Below are positions 32,996 through 43,280 of a stretch of DNA of 44,973 bases, one piece after another. This stretch comes from a virus. Every line of letters begins with the position of its first letter. Within the stretch, counting starts at the first letter, position 1. The stretch is from positions 1 through 44,973 of IMG/VR virus record IMGVR_UViG_3300025121_000080. One strand, 5' to 3'. A program made the position numbers and the translations under genes. Under the pieces are notes generated by a model. That model was not told the origin of the DNA. It was given only the letters and a program-made list of their open reading frames with translations, and made no database searches.

Positions 32996-33256
32996 TTATG
33001 GGGCCGAAGATACGTTATGCGTCAAGGCTTCTTTCGCCACGCATGACGCATCATACATTGCCATGCTATTTCTACTCGCTGGTAAATTATCGTCGTACAT
33101 TCCAGCAATATCTGATAAAGCCAGTTTTAACCTATTTATTTCATTCAGTGCTTGTCGAACGCGCAATGCTCCGACATTAAATCCAGCTTCATCAATAGCA
33201 TTAGCTACATCAGAAAGTTCCATTTCATCTTTTTCTTCTATATAGTAAAGTGACAT
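32996..33256 (-). CDS. Hypothetical protein, 86 aa
   Basis: GGAGA five bases before the ATG. Acidic and helical throughout, with Ala-Asn-Ala-Ile-Asp-Glu-Ala-Gly-Phe and Leu-Asn-Glu-Ile-Asn-Arg-Leu-Lys-Leu-Ala. It lies directly after the attC-like element in the direction of transcription. No family recognised. Confidence 0.65.
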   Translation of the reverse strand: MSLYYIEEKDEMELSDVANAIDEAGFNVGALRVRQALNEINRLKLALSDIAGMYDDNLPASRNSMAMYDASCVAKEALTHNVSSAP

Positions 33257-33269
33257 ATCATTCTCCGTT

Positions 33270-33292
33270 GAAAAAGCCGCCCAACCCGGCGG
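33270..33292 (-). terminator. Possible leftward terminator within the attC-like element
   Basis: On the minus strand, CCGCC (33292-33288) pairs with GGCGG (33281-33277), followed by CTTTTT. The stem is short. It coincides with the R' side of the attC-like inverted repeat, so the hairpin may serve both roles or only one. Confidence 0.4.
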
Positions 33293-33341
33293 TCAAGAGG
33301 GACTGCCGCAGAAGCGGCCTCGCTGAACTCACATGTTATGC
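33279..33341 (-). other. Solitary attC-like inverted repeat
   Basis: Read on the minus strand, R'' GCATAAC (33341-33335) and R' GTTGGGC (33285-33279, a perfect GTTRRRY match) bound imperfectly complementary L''/L' arms. A central 5-bp GCCGC/GCGGC hairpin and 6-base spacers complete the layout. Total 63 bp, the usual length of integron attC sites. It lies between ssb and the next gene. No partner core site is found nearby, so it could be a single remnant or a chance hairpin/terminator. Confidence 0.45.
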
Positions 33342-35331: not shown

Positions 35332-35880
35332 TTATCCCCCTTGGTGTGTTTTAGCCGCAAGCAAAATCAATTCACGGTTCTTTTTCCAGAACTCGGCGGC
35401 GTGTGAGTCCATTTTTGCAATTTTCTCATCATCAAAATCAATCCACTCCTGCGTAGAGTGGAATTCGCATCCAATCTTGATATGTGCATCGAAAATCATC
35501 ACAGACCAACGGAGACCGAGGATTTGCAGGATGCCCTTAGTGAGTGTGGCGATGCCATATATCGCCCCGGCCAGATTCGCCCCGTCCAGATTCGCCCCGT
35601 CCAGATTCGCCCCGTCCAGATTCGCCCTGACCAGATTCGCCCTGGCCAGATTCGCCCTGACCAGATTCGCCCCGTCCAGATTCGCCCCGTCCAGATACGC
35701 CCCGTCCAGATACGCCCCGGCCAGATTCGCCCCGTCCAGATACGCCCCGGCCAGATACACCCCGTCCAGATTCGCCCTGATTCTAACGGCAGCCTCAACT
35801 GTCAATTTGATGCTATTATTTTCGCAGTCGTGCGAAAAAATTACTCTTGAATCAAACCGTGATTTTATTTCGATGAGCAT
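35332..35880 (-). CDS. Pentapeptide-repeat protein
   Basis: 182 residues. Residues ~32-107 are pentapeptide repeats of the form Ala-(Asn/Tyr)-Leu-(Asp/Ala/Val)-(Gly/Arg), expected to form a quadrilateral beta-helix. The C-terminal ~75 residues (Ile-Leu-Gln-Ile-Leu-Gly-Leu-Arg-Trp-Ser ... Ala-Ala-Glu-Phe-Trp-Lys-Lys-Asn) form a cap. Such proteins can mimic DNA and protect or inhibit DNA enzymes (for example gyrase), but many have no known role. GGGGGA lies upstream of the ATG. The coding DNA is a near-perfect 15-bp tandem repeat. Confidence 0.85.
   Translation of the reverse strand: MLIEIKSRFDSRVIFSHDCENNSIKLTVEAAVRIRANLDGVYLAGAYLDGANLAGAYLDGAYLDGANLDGANLVRANLARANLVRANLDGANLDGANLDGANLAGAIYGIATLTKGILQILGLRWSVMIFDAHIKIGCEFHSTQEWIDFDDEKIAKMDSHAAEFWKKNRELILLAAKTHQGG
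35563..35772. repeat. Fourteen 15-bp tandem repeats in the pentapeptide gene
   Basis: Fourteen contiguous units of consensus CGCCCCGTCCAGATT, with substitutions mainly at positions 6-8 and 15. Period 15 equals one pentapeptide. The period keeps all frames open, so the long plus-strand ORFs here are shadows. Unit gain or loss by slippage would change the helix length. Confidence 0.95.
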
Positions 35881-36127
35881 GATTCCCCCATAAGTTAAAT
35901 TTGAGCCAATGATGGTCTGCATTGGCACAGGCTGTGATTCGGGTTTTCAGTTCGGAACTTAGTAATCCGCTATAACACAACGCATGGCCGATGCTGACTG
36001 CACGCTGACCTAAGTGCAGTAATGGGCCTGAATACTCACGATGCACAGGCTTTTGGCGGATGGTGCTTAATGGTATTTTGCACAAGGCAAGAGGGGCAGG
36101 TTTAGCTCTCCTCACCATCTCATCCAT
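35852..36127 (-). CDS. Doubtful ORF, 91 aa
   Basis: Open frame between the promoter-proximal genes and the pentapeptide gene, overlapping the start of the latter by 29 bp. No ribosome site before the ATG at 36127, and the composition is Leu/Ser/His/Arg-rich without a recognisable motif. It is retained because the operon would otherwise contain a ~400-bp gap. It may be a decayed gene or non-coding. Confidence 0.3.
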   Translation of the reverse strand: MDEMVRRAKPAPLALCKIPLSTIRQKPVHREYSGPLLHLGQRAVSIGHALCYSGLLSSELKTRITACANADHHWLKFNLWGNHAHRNKITV

Positions 36128-40729: not shown

Positions 40730-41110
40730 ATGAGTAAGCCATTTGGAGATATGGATGTGGAAAACTTCAAACAAAAAAAACTTCGTGCATCCGAGCAGAG
40801 CGATGTGGATGCTGTTAGAGCAAGATTTGAAACTTTTGATGATTGGTTTTTCAAAGAACCATATCGCGCTAAATATCGGTCAGTTTATAACAAATCTGAT
40901 CCTGTTTATATGTCAGCAAAGGAAGCATGGGACTACCAAGCCGGTATCGCTGCCCATAACGAATGGATAAGCGTTAAGGATAGGTTGCCTGATGCAGAGG
41001 AAAGAGTGTATGTAATTATGTCGTGTCGCTGGAATAATGATTGGATGACCTCATCAAAAGCAAGTGCTGAAGAAATTACCCATTGGATGCCCCTCCCACC
41101 TAAACCATGA
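40730..41110 (+). CDS. DUF551-domain protein, 126 aa
   Basis: The C-terminal ~55 residues are a DUF551 domain: Trp-Ile-Ser-Val-Lys-Asp-Arg-Leu-Pro-Asp (about 76-85) and Ile-Thr-His-Trp-Met-Pro-Leu-Pro-Pro-Lys-Pro at the end. This family is widespread in phages of enterics and other proteobacteria and of unknown biochemical role. The N-terminal half has Trp-Phe-Phe-Lys and Ala-Trp-Asp-Tyr-Gln-Ala-Gly. GAGG nine bases upstream. Confidence 0.8.
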   Translation: MSKPFGDMDVENFKQKKLRASEQSDVDAVRARFETFDDWFFKEPYRAKYRSVYNKSDPVYMSAKEAWDYQAGIAAHNEWISVKDRLPDAEERVYVIMSCRWNNDWMTSSKASAEEITHWMPLPPKP

Positions 41111-41310
41111 CCGAAGACGACCAAGAACGCATAAGTATCATTGCGGAGGGCAATCGCATCTCACAGACTGATGCAGAGATAAAATACGAAGCGATGAACA
41201 AATCAAACCCATATGCTGATTTGGAACTTCGGGCAAAGCAAAGGAAGATTGAAAACAGGATGCGTAAGAATTTGAAGCTGGATAACAAATCGAAGGCTAG
41301 TGGCGAGTAA
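41107..41310 (+). CDS. Small helical protein ending in an attC site, 67 aa
   Basis: Start overlaps the DUF551 stop (ATGA). Charged and helical, Asn/Lys/Arg-rich C-terminus. Its TAA stop lies inside the R'' core of the first attC (GAGTAAC), as is usual for a gene cassette. The left boundary of that cassette was not found, so it may be a fusion of phage sequence with a cassette end. Confidence 0.6.
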   Translation: MTEDDQERISIIAEGNRISQTDAEIKYEAMNKSNPYADLELRAKQRKIENRMRKNLKLDNKSKASGE

Positions 41311-41366
41311 CGTTTGAATTCAGCGCCGGGCCGCTTTTGCCCGTGCGCTGGAATGATGGGTTGTGC
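41305..41366 (+). other. attC-type recombination site 1 (62 bp)
   Basis: R'' GAGTAAC (41305-41311), L'' from 41318, a central hairpin (CAGCGC-CGGGC against its complement with one unpaired base), L' ending 41354, spacer of 5, R' GTTGTGC (41360-41366). L'' ATTCAGCGC and L' ATTCCAGCGC (as complement) differ by one extra base, the extrahelical-base feature of attC. Confidence 0.8.
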
Positions 41367-42388
41367 GTCAATACTACGGAGATATGTTTTTAATGATAAA
41401 GCACGTTGTTTCTGTTTCGGGAGGAAAAGACAGCACAGCAACGCTCTTGCTCGCAATGGAAAATTGCACTCGTGAAAACATAGAGCCGATTTTCTGCGAC
41501 ACCGGCAATGAGCATGAGGCTGTCTATGAATACCTCGCCTATCTGGAACAGGCTCTGGACATCACCATCACCCGGCTCAAGGCCGACTTCAGCGAACAAA
41601 TAGCGCGCAAGCGCATGTTCATAGCTAGAGACCAGCGCAAAGGCCGAAAAGATGGTAAGCGGCTGCGCTGGAGCAACAAAGCAAAGCGTCGCGCATTGTC
41701 TGTACTGCACCCAACTGGCAATCCGTTCCTTGATCTGTGCTTGTGGAAGGGGCGATTCCCCAGCAGGAAGGCGCAGTTCTGCACCGAAGAACTGAAGCGC
41801 AACATGGCTGTTGAATTTCAACTTGATTTGATTGATGCGGGGTATCAAGTGTTGAGTTGGCAGGGCGTGCGCAGGGACGAAAGCGAAAACCGCAAAAACG
41901 CTAAAAAAGTTGAACGTATCGGCGGCGGGATTTGGACATTCCGCCCTATTGTTGATTGGACTGCGCTGGATACCTTTGCATTTGCAAAATCGCGTGGCGT
42001 CCAATCAAACCCGCTTTATACGCAGGGCATGGGGAGAGTGGGATGTATGCCTTGTATCAACGCGAGAAAGGGCGAGTTGCTACAGATTAGCAAACGATTC
42101 CCCGAACATGTGAATCGAATTGCCGAGTGGGAGGCTTTGGTTGCAATGGCAAGCAAGCGTGGAATGTCAACATTTTTTGCAGCACCAAAAATGACCAATA
42201 GAGAAGCGTCAAAGCAAACTATTGATACAAAAGTCGAATGGGCAAAAACAACACACGGTGGCAAGCAGTTTGATCTACTGGGCGATCTGCCAGAATCAAC
42301 AGCTTGCGCATCGGCTTATGGATTATGCGAATGACGCACAACGTGTAGTTGAGGGGCTGCGCTTTATGCAGTCCGCTCGAACGTAGGG
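41361..42388 (+). mobile_element. Integron-type gene cassette 1 (PP-loop/PAPS-reductase-like gene)
   Basis: Runs from the recombination point in R' of site 1 to the same point in site 2 (G^TT). The 5' end TTGTGC is the exact complement of this cassette's own R'' (GCACAAC), as expected of a cassette once circular. A single gene fills it, with its stop one base before R''. Confidence 0.8.
41393..42334 (+). CDS. PP-loop ATPase / PAPS-reductase-family enzyme
   Basis: About 313 residues. The adenylylating PP-loop Ser-Gly-Gly-Lys-Asp-Ser-Thr (residues 9-15) is intact. Then come Cys-Asp-Thr-Gly-Asn-Glu and Gln-Gly-Val-Arg-Arg-Asp-Glu-Ser motifs, and Gly-Cys-Met-Pro-Cys-Ile-Asn-Ala (Cys-x-x-Cys) near residue 215, as in PAPS/APS reductase and DndC-like sulphurtransferases. 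Phage members may act in sulphur metabolism, base modification or defence; the target is unknown. Start ATG 41393 gives the family N-terminus; ATG 41384 and GTG 41363 are alternatives. Sole gene of cassette 1. Confidence 0.8.
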   Translation: MIKHVVSVSGGKDSTATLLLAMENCTRENIEPIFCDTGNEHEAVYEYLAYLEQALDITITRLKADFSEQIARKRMFIARDQRKGRKDGKRLRWSNKAKRRALSVLHPTGNPFLDLCLWKGRFPSRKAQFCTEELKRNMAVEFQLDLIDAGYQVLSWQGVRRDESENRKNAKKVERIGGGIWTFRPIVDWTALDTFAFAKSRGVQSNPLYTQGMGRVGCMPCINARKGELLQISKRFPEHVNRIAEWEALVAMASKRGMSTFFAAPKMTNREASKQTIDTKVEWAKTTHGGKQFDLLGDLPESTACASAYGLCE

Positions 42389-42394
42389 TTCGAC
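42336..42394 (+). other. attC-type recombination site 2 (59 bp)
   Basis: R'' GCACAAC (42336-42342), spacer 5, L'' (GTTGAGGGG), loop stem CTGC/GCAG with GCTTTAT, L' (CGCTCGAAC), spacer 5, R' GTTCGAC (42388-42394). L'' and L' pair with one or more extra unpaired bases. Its length equals the classic '59-base element'. The T-arm-like look (GGTTCGACC) is coincidental. Confidence 0.85.
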
Positions 42395-42646
42395 CCCTAC
42401 TTTAACCGGAGAATGAAAATGGAAGAATGCAAACATGTATGGGTTTCAAATAGTGGTGCAGGCGGGGAGCCAGTGTTTAGGACACACCCACAACTTGCGG
42501 GGATGATTCCTTGCATGCACGTTAAATGCGAACTTTGTAATGATAGAACATGGTTCAGTCAGGCAACGTGGCTTGCACTGAAAAAACAGCAGGGGTCGAA
42601 CGCAGAAATAACCGGCGGCTGAAAGCCGTCCGGGTTGATTGACGGG
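42389..42646 (+). mobile_element. Integron-type gene cassette 2 (zinc-finger ORF)
   Basis: Bounded by G^TTCGAC of site 2 and the G^TT of site 3. The R'' of site 3 (GTCGAAC) is the exact complement of its 5' GTTCGAC. Contains one short gene whose stop lies inside site 3. Confidence 0.8.
42419..42622 (+). CDS. Small zinc-binding protein of cassette 2, 67 aa
   Basis: GGAG seven bases before this ATG (an upstream ATG at 42413 would leave no spacer). Cys-Lys-His-Val-Trp near the N-terminus and Cys-Met-His-Val-Lys-Cys-Glu-Leu-Cys-Asn (residues ~32-41) suggest a zinc ribbon. From memory, similar short proteins appear in several phages. Its stop TGA (42620-42622) is in the central stem of attC 3, as often in cassettes. 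Confidence 0.7.
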   Translation: MEECKHVWVSNSGAGGEPVFRTHPQLAGMIPCMHVKCELCNDRTWFSQATWLALKKQQGSNAEITGG

Positions 42647-42652
42647 TTAGCC
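42595..42652 (+). other. attC-type recombination site 3 (58 bp)
   Basis: R'' GTCGAAC (42595-42601), spacer 5, L'' AATAACCGG, perfect central stem CGGCT/AGCCG with a 3-nt loop (42616-42628), L' CCGGGTTGATT, spacer 5, R' GTTAGCC (42646-42652). L'' against the complement of L' (AATCAACCCGG) differs by two extra bases, the extrahelical feature. Confidence 0.85.
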
Positions 42653-42690
42653 AGCACCCCAACCGCTGGCGACAACTACAAGGAATGGAC

Positions 42691-43269
42691 ATGGACATCA
42701 AGACACTCGAAGCACTCGGCATCAGCCCGGAAACCCTTGGCGACCGGATCGTGGATCAGGCGGTCGAAGTGCTGCTGAGTACCAGCGGATTCGACCCGGA
42801 TACCGAAGAAGAGACACGCTACGAATCGCGGTTTAAGAAGGCAATCGAGGTTCGCATTCAGAAGGCGGTCGATGAAAAGATTGCTGCGCTGGCTGCGGTG
42901 CATTTGGTCCCGAGGGTTGGCGAAATGATCGAGAAGGCCGACATGCGGCAGACGAACCGTTACGGCGAACCGAATACGCCGCCAATGACGTTCAAGGAAT
43001 ACATTGCAGCCCGTGCCGAATCCTACATGAGCGAAGACGTGGATTCGAATGGCAAGAATAAATCTGAGAACGGCGATTCGTACAACTTTCGCAGCGCAGG
43101 GCCGCGACTGACCGTGCTGATGAAAATGTACATCAAAGACTCGATGGAGTCAGCGGCAAAGGCGGCGGTCAATGACATCAACAAGGTGATCGCCAAGAAC
43201 ATCGAGAAGGCAGCGAAAGACGCCATTGTTTCGGTGGCCGGATCGCTCAAGGTGGCTGTTTCGGCCTAG
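42691..43269 (+). CDS. Phage-type hypothetical protein of cassette 3, 192 aa
   Basis: AAGGA ribosome site six bases before ATG 42691 (the first ATG, 42685, abuts it). The sequence (Ile-Lys-Thr-Leu-Glu-Ala-Leu-Gly-Ile-Ser ... Gly-Phe-Asp-Pro-Asp-Thr-Glu-Glu-Glu ... Val-Asp-Glu-Lys-Ile-Ala-Ala-Leu-Ala) matches my memory of a widespread phage protein of unknown function, helical and acidic. Codon third positions are strongly G/C, unlike flanking genes, marking recent arrival from another genome. Confidence 0.75.
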   Translation: MDIKTLEALGISPETLGDRIVDQAVEVLLSTSGFDPDTEEETRYESRFKKAIEVRIQKAVDEKIAALAAVHLVPRVGEMIEKADMRQTNRYGEPNTPPMTFKEYIAARAESYMSEDVDSNGKNKSENGDSYNFRSAGPRLTVLMKMYIKDSMESAAKAAVNDINKVIAKNIEKAAKDAIVSVAGSLKVAVSA

Positions 43270-43273
43270 TGAT

Positions 43274-43280
43274 GGCTAAC
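43274..43280 (+). other. Orphan R'' half of attC 4
   Basis: GGCTAAC, exact reverse complement of the R' of attC 3, placed five bases after the stop of the cassette 3 gene. No matching GTT core follows within 100 bp apart from a poor GTTTTAC at 43325. Confidence 0.7.

Follow-up and report, generated by a model that had tools for sequence, protein, structure and literature searches.

How does a tailed phage come to carry what look like integron gene cassettes, and from where would the genes that they delimit have been drawn? The window analyzed here, i.e. the whole 44,973-bp stretch of DNA, is an entire IMG/VR virus record in which genes for a terminase, a P22-type portal, NinB and NinG were detected, as in a tailed phage. 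Between a 67-aa ORF (41107-41310) and ninB (43323) lie three genes: one of the PAPS-reductase family, one coding for a protein of 69 aa, and a phage gene of 194 aa (Table 1). A sequence-only reading of this region had proposed a CALIN-like cassette array, with its recombination sites oriented like the genes.

Three gene cassettes with reversed genes

Both the positions and the lengths (62, 59 and 58 bp) of three attC-type sites, as well as their core pairs GTTGTGC/GCACAAC, GTTCGAC/GTCGAAC and GTTAGCC/GGCTAAC, had been given correctly in that reading: in all three 7/7 pairs the R'' of an attC exactly complements the core at the 5' end of the cassette to which it belongs. It had further held this complementarity to be decisive. 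However, in Markov shuffles of the window, GTTNNNN/NNNNAAC pairs that match commonly form chains as long as the real one or longer. Core complementarity alone is therefore indecisive; accordingly, we rejected core-pair chains as proof of attC, and built and relied on a covariance model that takes the hairpin into account. This model, R1, was trained on 28 genuine attCs, with the window sites excluded, which were chosen by core-pair linkage from integron loci of integrase-bearing genomes and of the plasmids R721 and R388; on the control loci it recovers 77 attCs. When the window is scanned with all filters off, all three sites score as attCs, the outcome that the sequence-only reading had expected of a covariance-model search, and the hairpin architecture R''/L''/L'/R' is present at each of them. 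Across ~0.83 Mb of related sequence, R1 matches below E 0.01 are confined to the window and two other loci (L062 and L040).

It is very improbable that these sites are merely attC-like terminators or regulatory hairpins of a phage operon with no part in recombination. While hairpins are common between phage genes and core-pair chains do occur by chance, here three clustered matches (E 1e-7 to 5e-6) come from a model trained solely on other integrons, Rfam gives no match to the window sites at gathering thresholds, and the cassette boundaries are found again in one phage record (G278) and in part at another locus (L082; see below). We conclude that the window carries three genuine integron gene cassettes.

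R1 scores all three attCs on the minus strand. The three cargo genes are called on the plus strand, and consequently each of them is antisense to its attC and co-directional with the phage operon, contrary to the co-orientation of sites and genes that had been described. The sequence-only reading had noted a two-arm stem, an extra base and spacers, but only on the minus strand, opposite to the genes, do the sites agree with the canonical attC in their extra bases, which then lie in the L'' arm, in the 5 nt between R'' and L'', and in the L'' arm itself. Further, the reverse complement of site 2 shares the arm GTTCGAGCGGACTGC with an attC of R388 (L189:31638-31706). The R1 scores, together with this arm comparison, rule out a plus-strand reading of the sites. 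In an ordinary bacterial cassette the gene is sense to its attC, an arrangement found in none of the three window cassettes. This reversal of the genes within their cassettes, which recurs in IntI-encoding phages, is the most unusual feature of the array, and had been overlooked.

The order of the cassettes is from right to left, leading from the junction at 43280 through cassettes 3, 2 and 1 to the last attC, which ends at 41305. What had been taken for a fourth half-site (43274-43280) is actually the G|TTAGCC junction that opens the first cassette, and the array is therefore complete at both ends. When joined, its two flanks form one continuous intergenic stretch, from which we infer an empty site, GGCGAGTAACGTAATTTAG (plus strand), located where the 67-aa ORF has its stop codon; among close relatives, none was found that covers this region with the site unoccupied. 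As the sequence-only reading had also maintained, there is no integron integrase in the 44,973-bp record (TIGR02249 profile and tblastn), and a model of the attI described below is silent at the array start at 43274, with its best match (10.5 bits) lying elsewhere. Thus, the window does not present a complete integron, with intI and attI in cis. Because the integron integrase is absent, its array of three attCs belongs with the CALINs (at least two attCs with no integron integrase nearby), and the earlier view of a CALIN-like array in a phage is upheld.

On the ninB side the edge of the array is exactly the start of a cassette, as it would be next to an attI, which could also point to a decayed phage integron, whose ancestral intI and attI were lost when the sequence on the ninB side was replaced, with no insertion in trans. 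In related phages attI and intI do occupy that position. However, given that 43274 yields no match to the attI model and that the flanks join into a single continuous intergenic stretch, we regard such a decay as unlikely.

Two further features of the window were noticed. A probable weak single attC sits in its second, minus-strand gene block, 23 nt upstream of a minus-strand gene for 86 aa (32996-33256) and antisense to it; its partner core GTTGGGC is absent nearby. At 35332-35928 (minus strand) there is a pentapeptide-repeat-like gene, whose repeats (e.g. ANLDGANLDGA) open long frames on both strands.

Table 1. Positions of the cassettes, recombination sites and cargo genes of the window, and of an attC body shared by two other phage records
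Feature	Position	Strand	Details
G|TTAGCC junction (array start, no attC)	43274..43280	-	exact complement of site 3 R''
Cassette 3 recombination unit, 679 bp	42601..43279	-	starts with TT of first core, ends with G of site 3 R'
Cassette 2 recombination unit, 259 bp	42342..42600	-	from core positions
Cassette 1 recombination unit, 1031 bp	41311..42341	-	from core positions
attC site 1 (last attC of array), 62 bp	41305..41366	-	R1 46.4 bits, E 9.6e-8; R'' GCACAAC, R' GTTACTC; attC of PAPS-reductase cassette
attC site 2, 59 bp	42336..42394	-	R1 37.9 bits, E 5e-6; R'' GTCGAAC, R' GTTGTGC; attC of 69-aa cassette
attC site 3, 58 bp	42595..42652	-	R1 43.0 bits, E 4.6e-7; R'' GGCTAAC, R' GTTCGAC; attC of 194-aa cassette
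PAPS-reductase-family gene	41396..42334	+	PF01507 E 1.2e-25; phrog_424 E 6e-67; antisense to own attC
69-aa ORF	42413..42622	+	from ORF list; antisense to own attC
194-aa phage gene	42685..43269	+	phrog_26090 E 2.7e-10; antisense to own attC
Probable weak single attC	33279..33341	+	R1 22.8 bits, E 0.0056
Shared attC body GGTCAGGGGAGCGCCGCTTGCGGCGCGTCCCCTGCACCGA	L264 20-4025 (G307); L274 8351-8413 (G354)

The window cassettes in other phages

Cassette 1 recurs in G278 (locus L062), a 20-kb record with genes for a phage-type repressor, a CII-like activator and a primase. Here, the PAPS-reductase gene shares both its cores, GTTGTGC/GCACAAC, and its leader, GGGTTGTGCGTCAATACTACGGAG, with that of the window; the attC is likewise antisense to the gene, and this is the first cassette beside a genuine IntI (TIGR02249, 477 bits). 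It is the only one of the window cassettes seen in common with an IntI-encoding phage: cassettes 2 and 3 were not found in any IntI-bearing phage. A PHROG search with the 69-aa ORF gave no match. The 194-aa gene has homologues in 15 virus contigs (58-81% identical), among them an 81% identical homologue in G307 (L082), which is preceded by a degenerate version of attC site 3. G307 is a 57-kb record with portal, head, terminase and RecT genes, and elsewhere in this phage seven attCs are antisense to methyltransferase and other genes; the same antisense arrangement is seen at three attCs of G354. A near-identical attC body is common to G307, where it occurs three times, and G354, with differing genes attached to it (Table 1). 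Overall, attCs at E <= 0.01 are present in 6 of the 99 records that have homologues of the PAPS reductase, the cassette-3 gene, NinB or the terminase; no attC was found in Acidovorax phages with a PAPS-reductase gene. The window thus combines genes antisense to their attCs with cargo of phage type, the two traits by which we recognize a pool of reversed cassettes.

Another group of loci (L085-L093) contains Pseudomonas-type phage homologues of the 194-aa gene with a conserved upstream inverted repeat (e.g. GATTTCACTGGCTGGCC...GGCCAGACGGGAAATC); as a candidate attC this repeat was rejected by R1.

Viral integron integrases and their cassettes

With the IntI of L062 as the query, we obtained 61 IMG/VR contigs with IntI relatives, a set assembled, therefore, by similarity to a single IntI. 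R1 finds 168 attC matches in these contigs, all but two on the strand opposite to intI, as in integrons generally. Codon scoring, for which long ORFs from the retrieved sequences served as the training set, places 77 of their cassette genes antisense to the attC and 10 sense, with 62 undecided, as against 5 antisense, 35 sense and 23 undecided in bacterial integrons scored in the same way, which were those of Gammaproteobacteria and two plasmids (77:10 versus 5:35, Fisher p 5e-17; by locus 27:2 versus 0:8, p 1e-6). Orientation calls from the longest ORF were noisy at high G+C and were dropped in favor of codon scoring and PHROG matches. The PHROG homology independently agrees with the orientation from codon scores: with L314 left out of both sets, the longest antisense cassette ORFs match 74 PHROG families and the sense ORFs two. 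The antisense cargo includes many DNA methyltransferases, PAPS reductases (five cassettes), a Mom-like modification protein and a DHH phosphoesterase. Upstream of intI, ~91% of the codons of predicted genes are co-directional with it, and a conserved attI (AACTTAAATTCnACGACACC...TGTCGC, read gene-wise) precedes intI, with the abutting cassette ends varying. The attI model matches at L263 and is silent on all ten bacterial control loci scanned.

These counts bear on the possibility that the window holds an ordinary CALIN, namely a piece of a host chromosomal integron taken up by the phage, in which the reversal reflects the retention of those genes that happened to be co-directional. There are documented cases of phages with integron pieces of host origin (PMC9892861), and the window is without an IntI of its own. 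Nevertheless, reversed genes are rare in bacterial integrons (5 of the 40 decided), as opposed to all three in the window and most of those in the viral cassettes; the cargo is typical of phages; and the PAPS-reductase cassette is found again in an IntI-bearing phage. Taken together, these observations render uptake from a host improbable.

Phage hallmark genes occur among the IntI-bearing records. A terminase (phrog_2 or phrog_15) was detected in 23 of the 50 tested, many of these records being fragments, and the portal phrog_21 is present in 14 of the IntI-bearing records and also in G354. In G386 the terminase is succeeded by the cassettes, then by intI and the portal, all in one direction, and the cassettes occupy the same spot, between the terminase large subunit and the portal, in both G386 (L344 3058-12317) and G354 (L274 5477-11523); a search of the initial 20 kb of G354 gave no IntI. 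IMG/VR contigs may contain chimeras or host flanks, and L314 resembles such a case. In a quick tree with partial bacterial sampling, 31 viral IntI sequences cluster apart from all 32 bacterial rows (SH-aLRT 85). The closest IntI among 369 gammaproteobacterial genomes is 64% identical, as against up to 79% among the viral relatives. In the annotated phage collection the top IntI is 57% identical, and no member of the viral IntI clade was found among the cultured phages of that collection. The metagenome number 3300009031 is common to L184, a near-identical relative of the window with a 99% identical terminase fragment, and the IntI phage G386, which makes it plausible that IntI was available within that sample.

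An IntI-like gene annotated as xerD, 48% identical, lies in a co-directional block of Virus Rctr41k (KX853513; L367 4680-5678), an enrichment-culture virus, with methyltransferase-like genes downstream; R1 finds no attC in this virus.

A proposed phage cassette pool and the known integrons

Our reading, accordingly, is that the window, though it has no integrase, belongs to a cassette pool of phages rich in DNA-modification genes, which it would share with IntI-encoding phages and whose reversed genes would be expressed with the phage operon (probability of roughly 0.7). Under this reading, a complete, integrase-less array of three cassettes would have been inserted between the 67-aa ORF and ninB, with the reversed cargo genes probably being read in one run with the genes of the phage, on into ninB. 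The cassettes would be drawn from a pool circulating among phages, some of which harbor a complete integron with the IntI co-directional with the operon, attI just upstream of it and the cassettes upstream of attI. As IntI acts on the folded bottom strand of attC, cassettes enter attI one way only, antisense to intI; with intI running along the phage operon, normal cassettes would be left antisense, whereas those with reversed genes could be expressed. If expression is limited to the latter wherever intI runs with the operon, a pool of reversed genes would be favored as a result, and we infer that this is the selective reason for the reversal. As to the array itself, the IntI of a phage or of the host may have placed it in trans at a G|TT that is not an attI; alternatively, intI and attI may have disappeared afterwards. 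The window has neither IntI nor attI to document an insertion; capture in trans by an integron integrase is plausible. IntI is known to use secondary (attG-type) sites, with which a non-attI G|TT target is consistent. One account lists attG among the IntI substrates (PMC12901181). Like attG insertions, which take place at a G|TT outside attI, the event proposed for the window would have used such a target; it differs in that the target lies in a phage intergenic stretch and that the empty site is reconstructed from the flanks only.

More broadly, the occurrence of reversed cassettes along with IntI-bearing phages suggests a dedicated system for gene-swapping among phages. We consider it likely that tailed phages possess an integron family of their own, comprising a phage-specific IntI clade co-directional with the phage operon, a conserved attI and a reversed pool rich in DNA-modification and other probable counter-defence genes, which integrase-less phages such as the window use in trans. 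The cargo would presumably act in DNA modification or counter-defence. If phages do run their own integrons, this would mean site-specific swapping of single, probably counter-defence, genes among unrelated phages, with DNA methyltransferases, Mom-like and PAPS-reductase genes at stake, and would account for a part of the mosaicism of their accessory regions. The reversed orientation also bears on how gene direction within a cassette is set and on the place in which cassettes arise.

Integrons are generally regarded as bacterial platforms that are occasionally acquired by phages. In contrast to the claim of the sequence-only reading that no well-described phage has such an array, both CALINs in phages and the recombination of phage attCs by IntI1 are already known: in Qi et al. 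2023, the phage CALINs reported number 17, and recombination with IntI1 was shown for 5 of 6 phage attCs (PMC9892861). As in the phage CALINs of TJE1, P12002L and PH101 (PMC9892861), the window has a cluster of attCs without an integrase, a cluster that in those phages partly carries methyltransferase cargo. However, in TJE1, the only CALIN of Qi et al. checked here, genes and attCs are on the same strand, unlike in the window, and that study (PMC9892861) describes no phage IntI lineage, phage attI or pool of reversed cassettes. The literature searched, which was covered in part and without preprints, yielded no description of phage integrons that combine reversed cassettes with an IntI clade and an attI of their own. 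Complete integrons in Vibrio phage Va_90-11-286_p16, Shewanella M16-3 and P1 likewise combine intI and cassettes in a phage or prophage record; yet their IntIs are host-type or class 1 enzymes that share 45-57% identity with the IntI of L062, and these integrons have been interpreted as captured host or class 1 integrons (PMC9892861). What is new is the wider system of IntI-bearing phages with reversed cassettes. In bacteria, the fixed orientation of cassettes directs their genes away from intI, under Pc. It is the recombination of the attC bottom strand by IntI that fixes this orientation at attI (PMC11023631). The phage systems are like bacterial chromosomal and class 1 integrons in the structure of attC, the rule of core complementarity and the orientation of attC relative to intI, but differ in the direction of the cassette genes: in bacteria these mostly follow the attC and point away from intI, whereas in the viral systems they oppose the attC and share the direction of intI.
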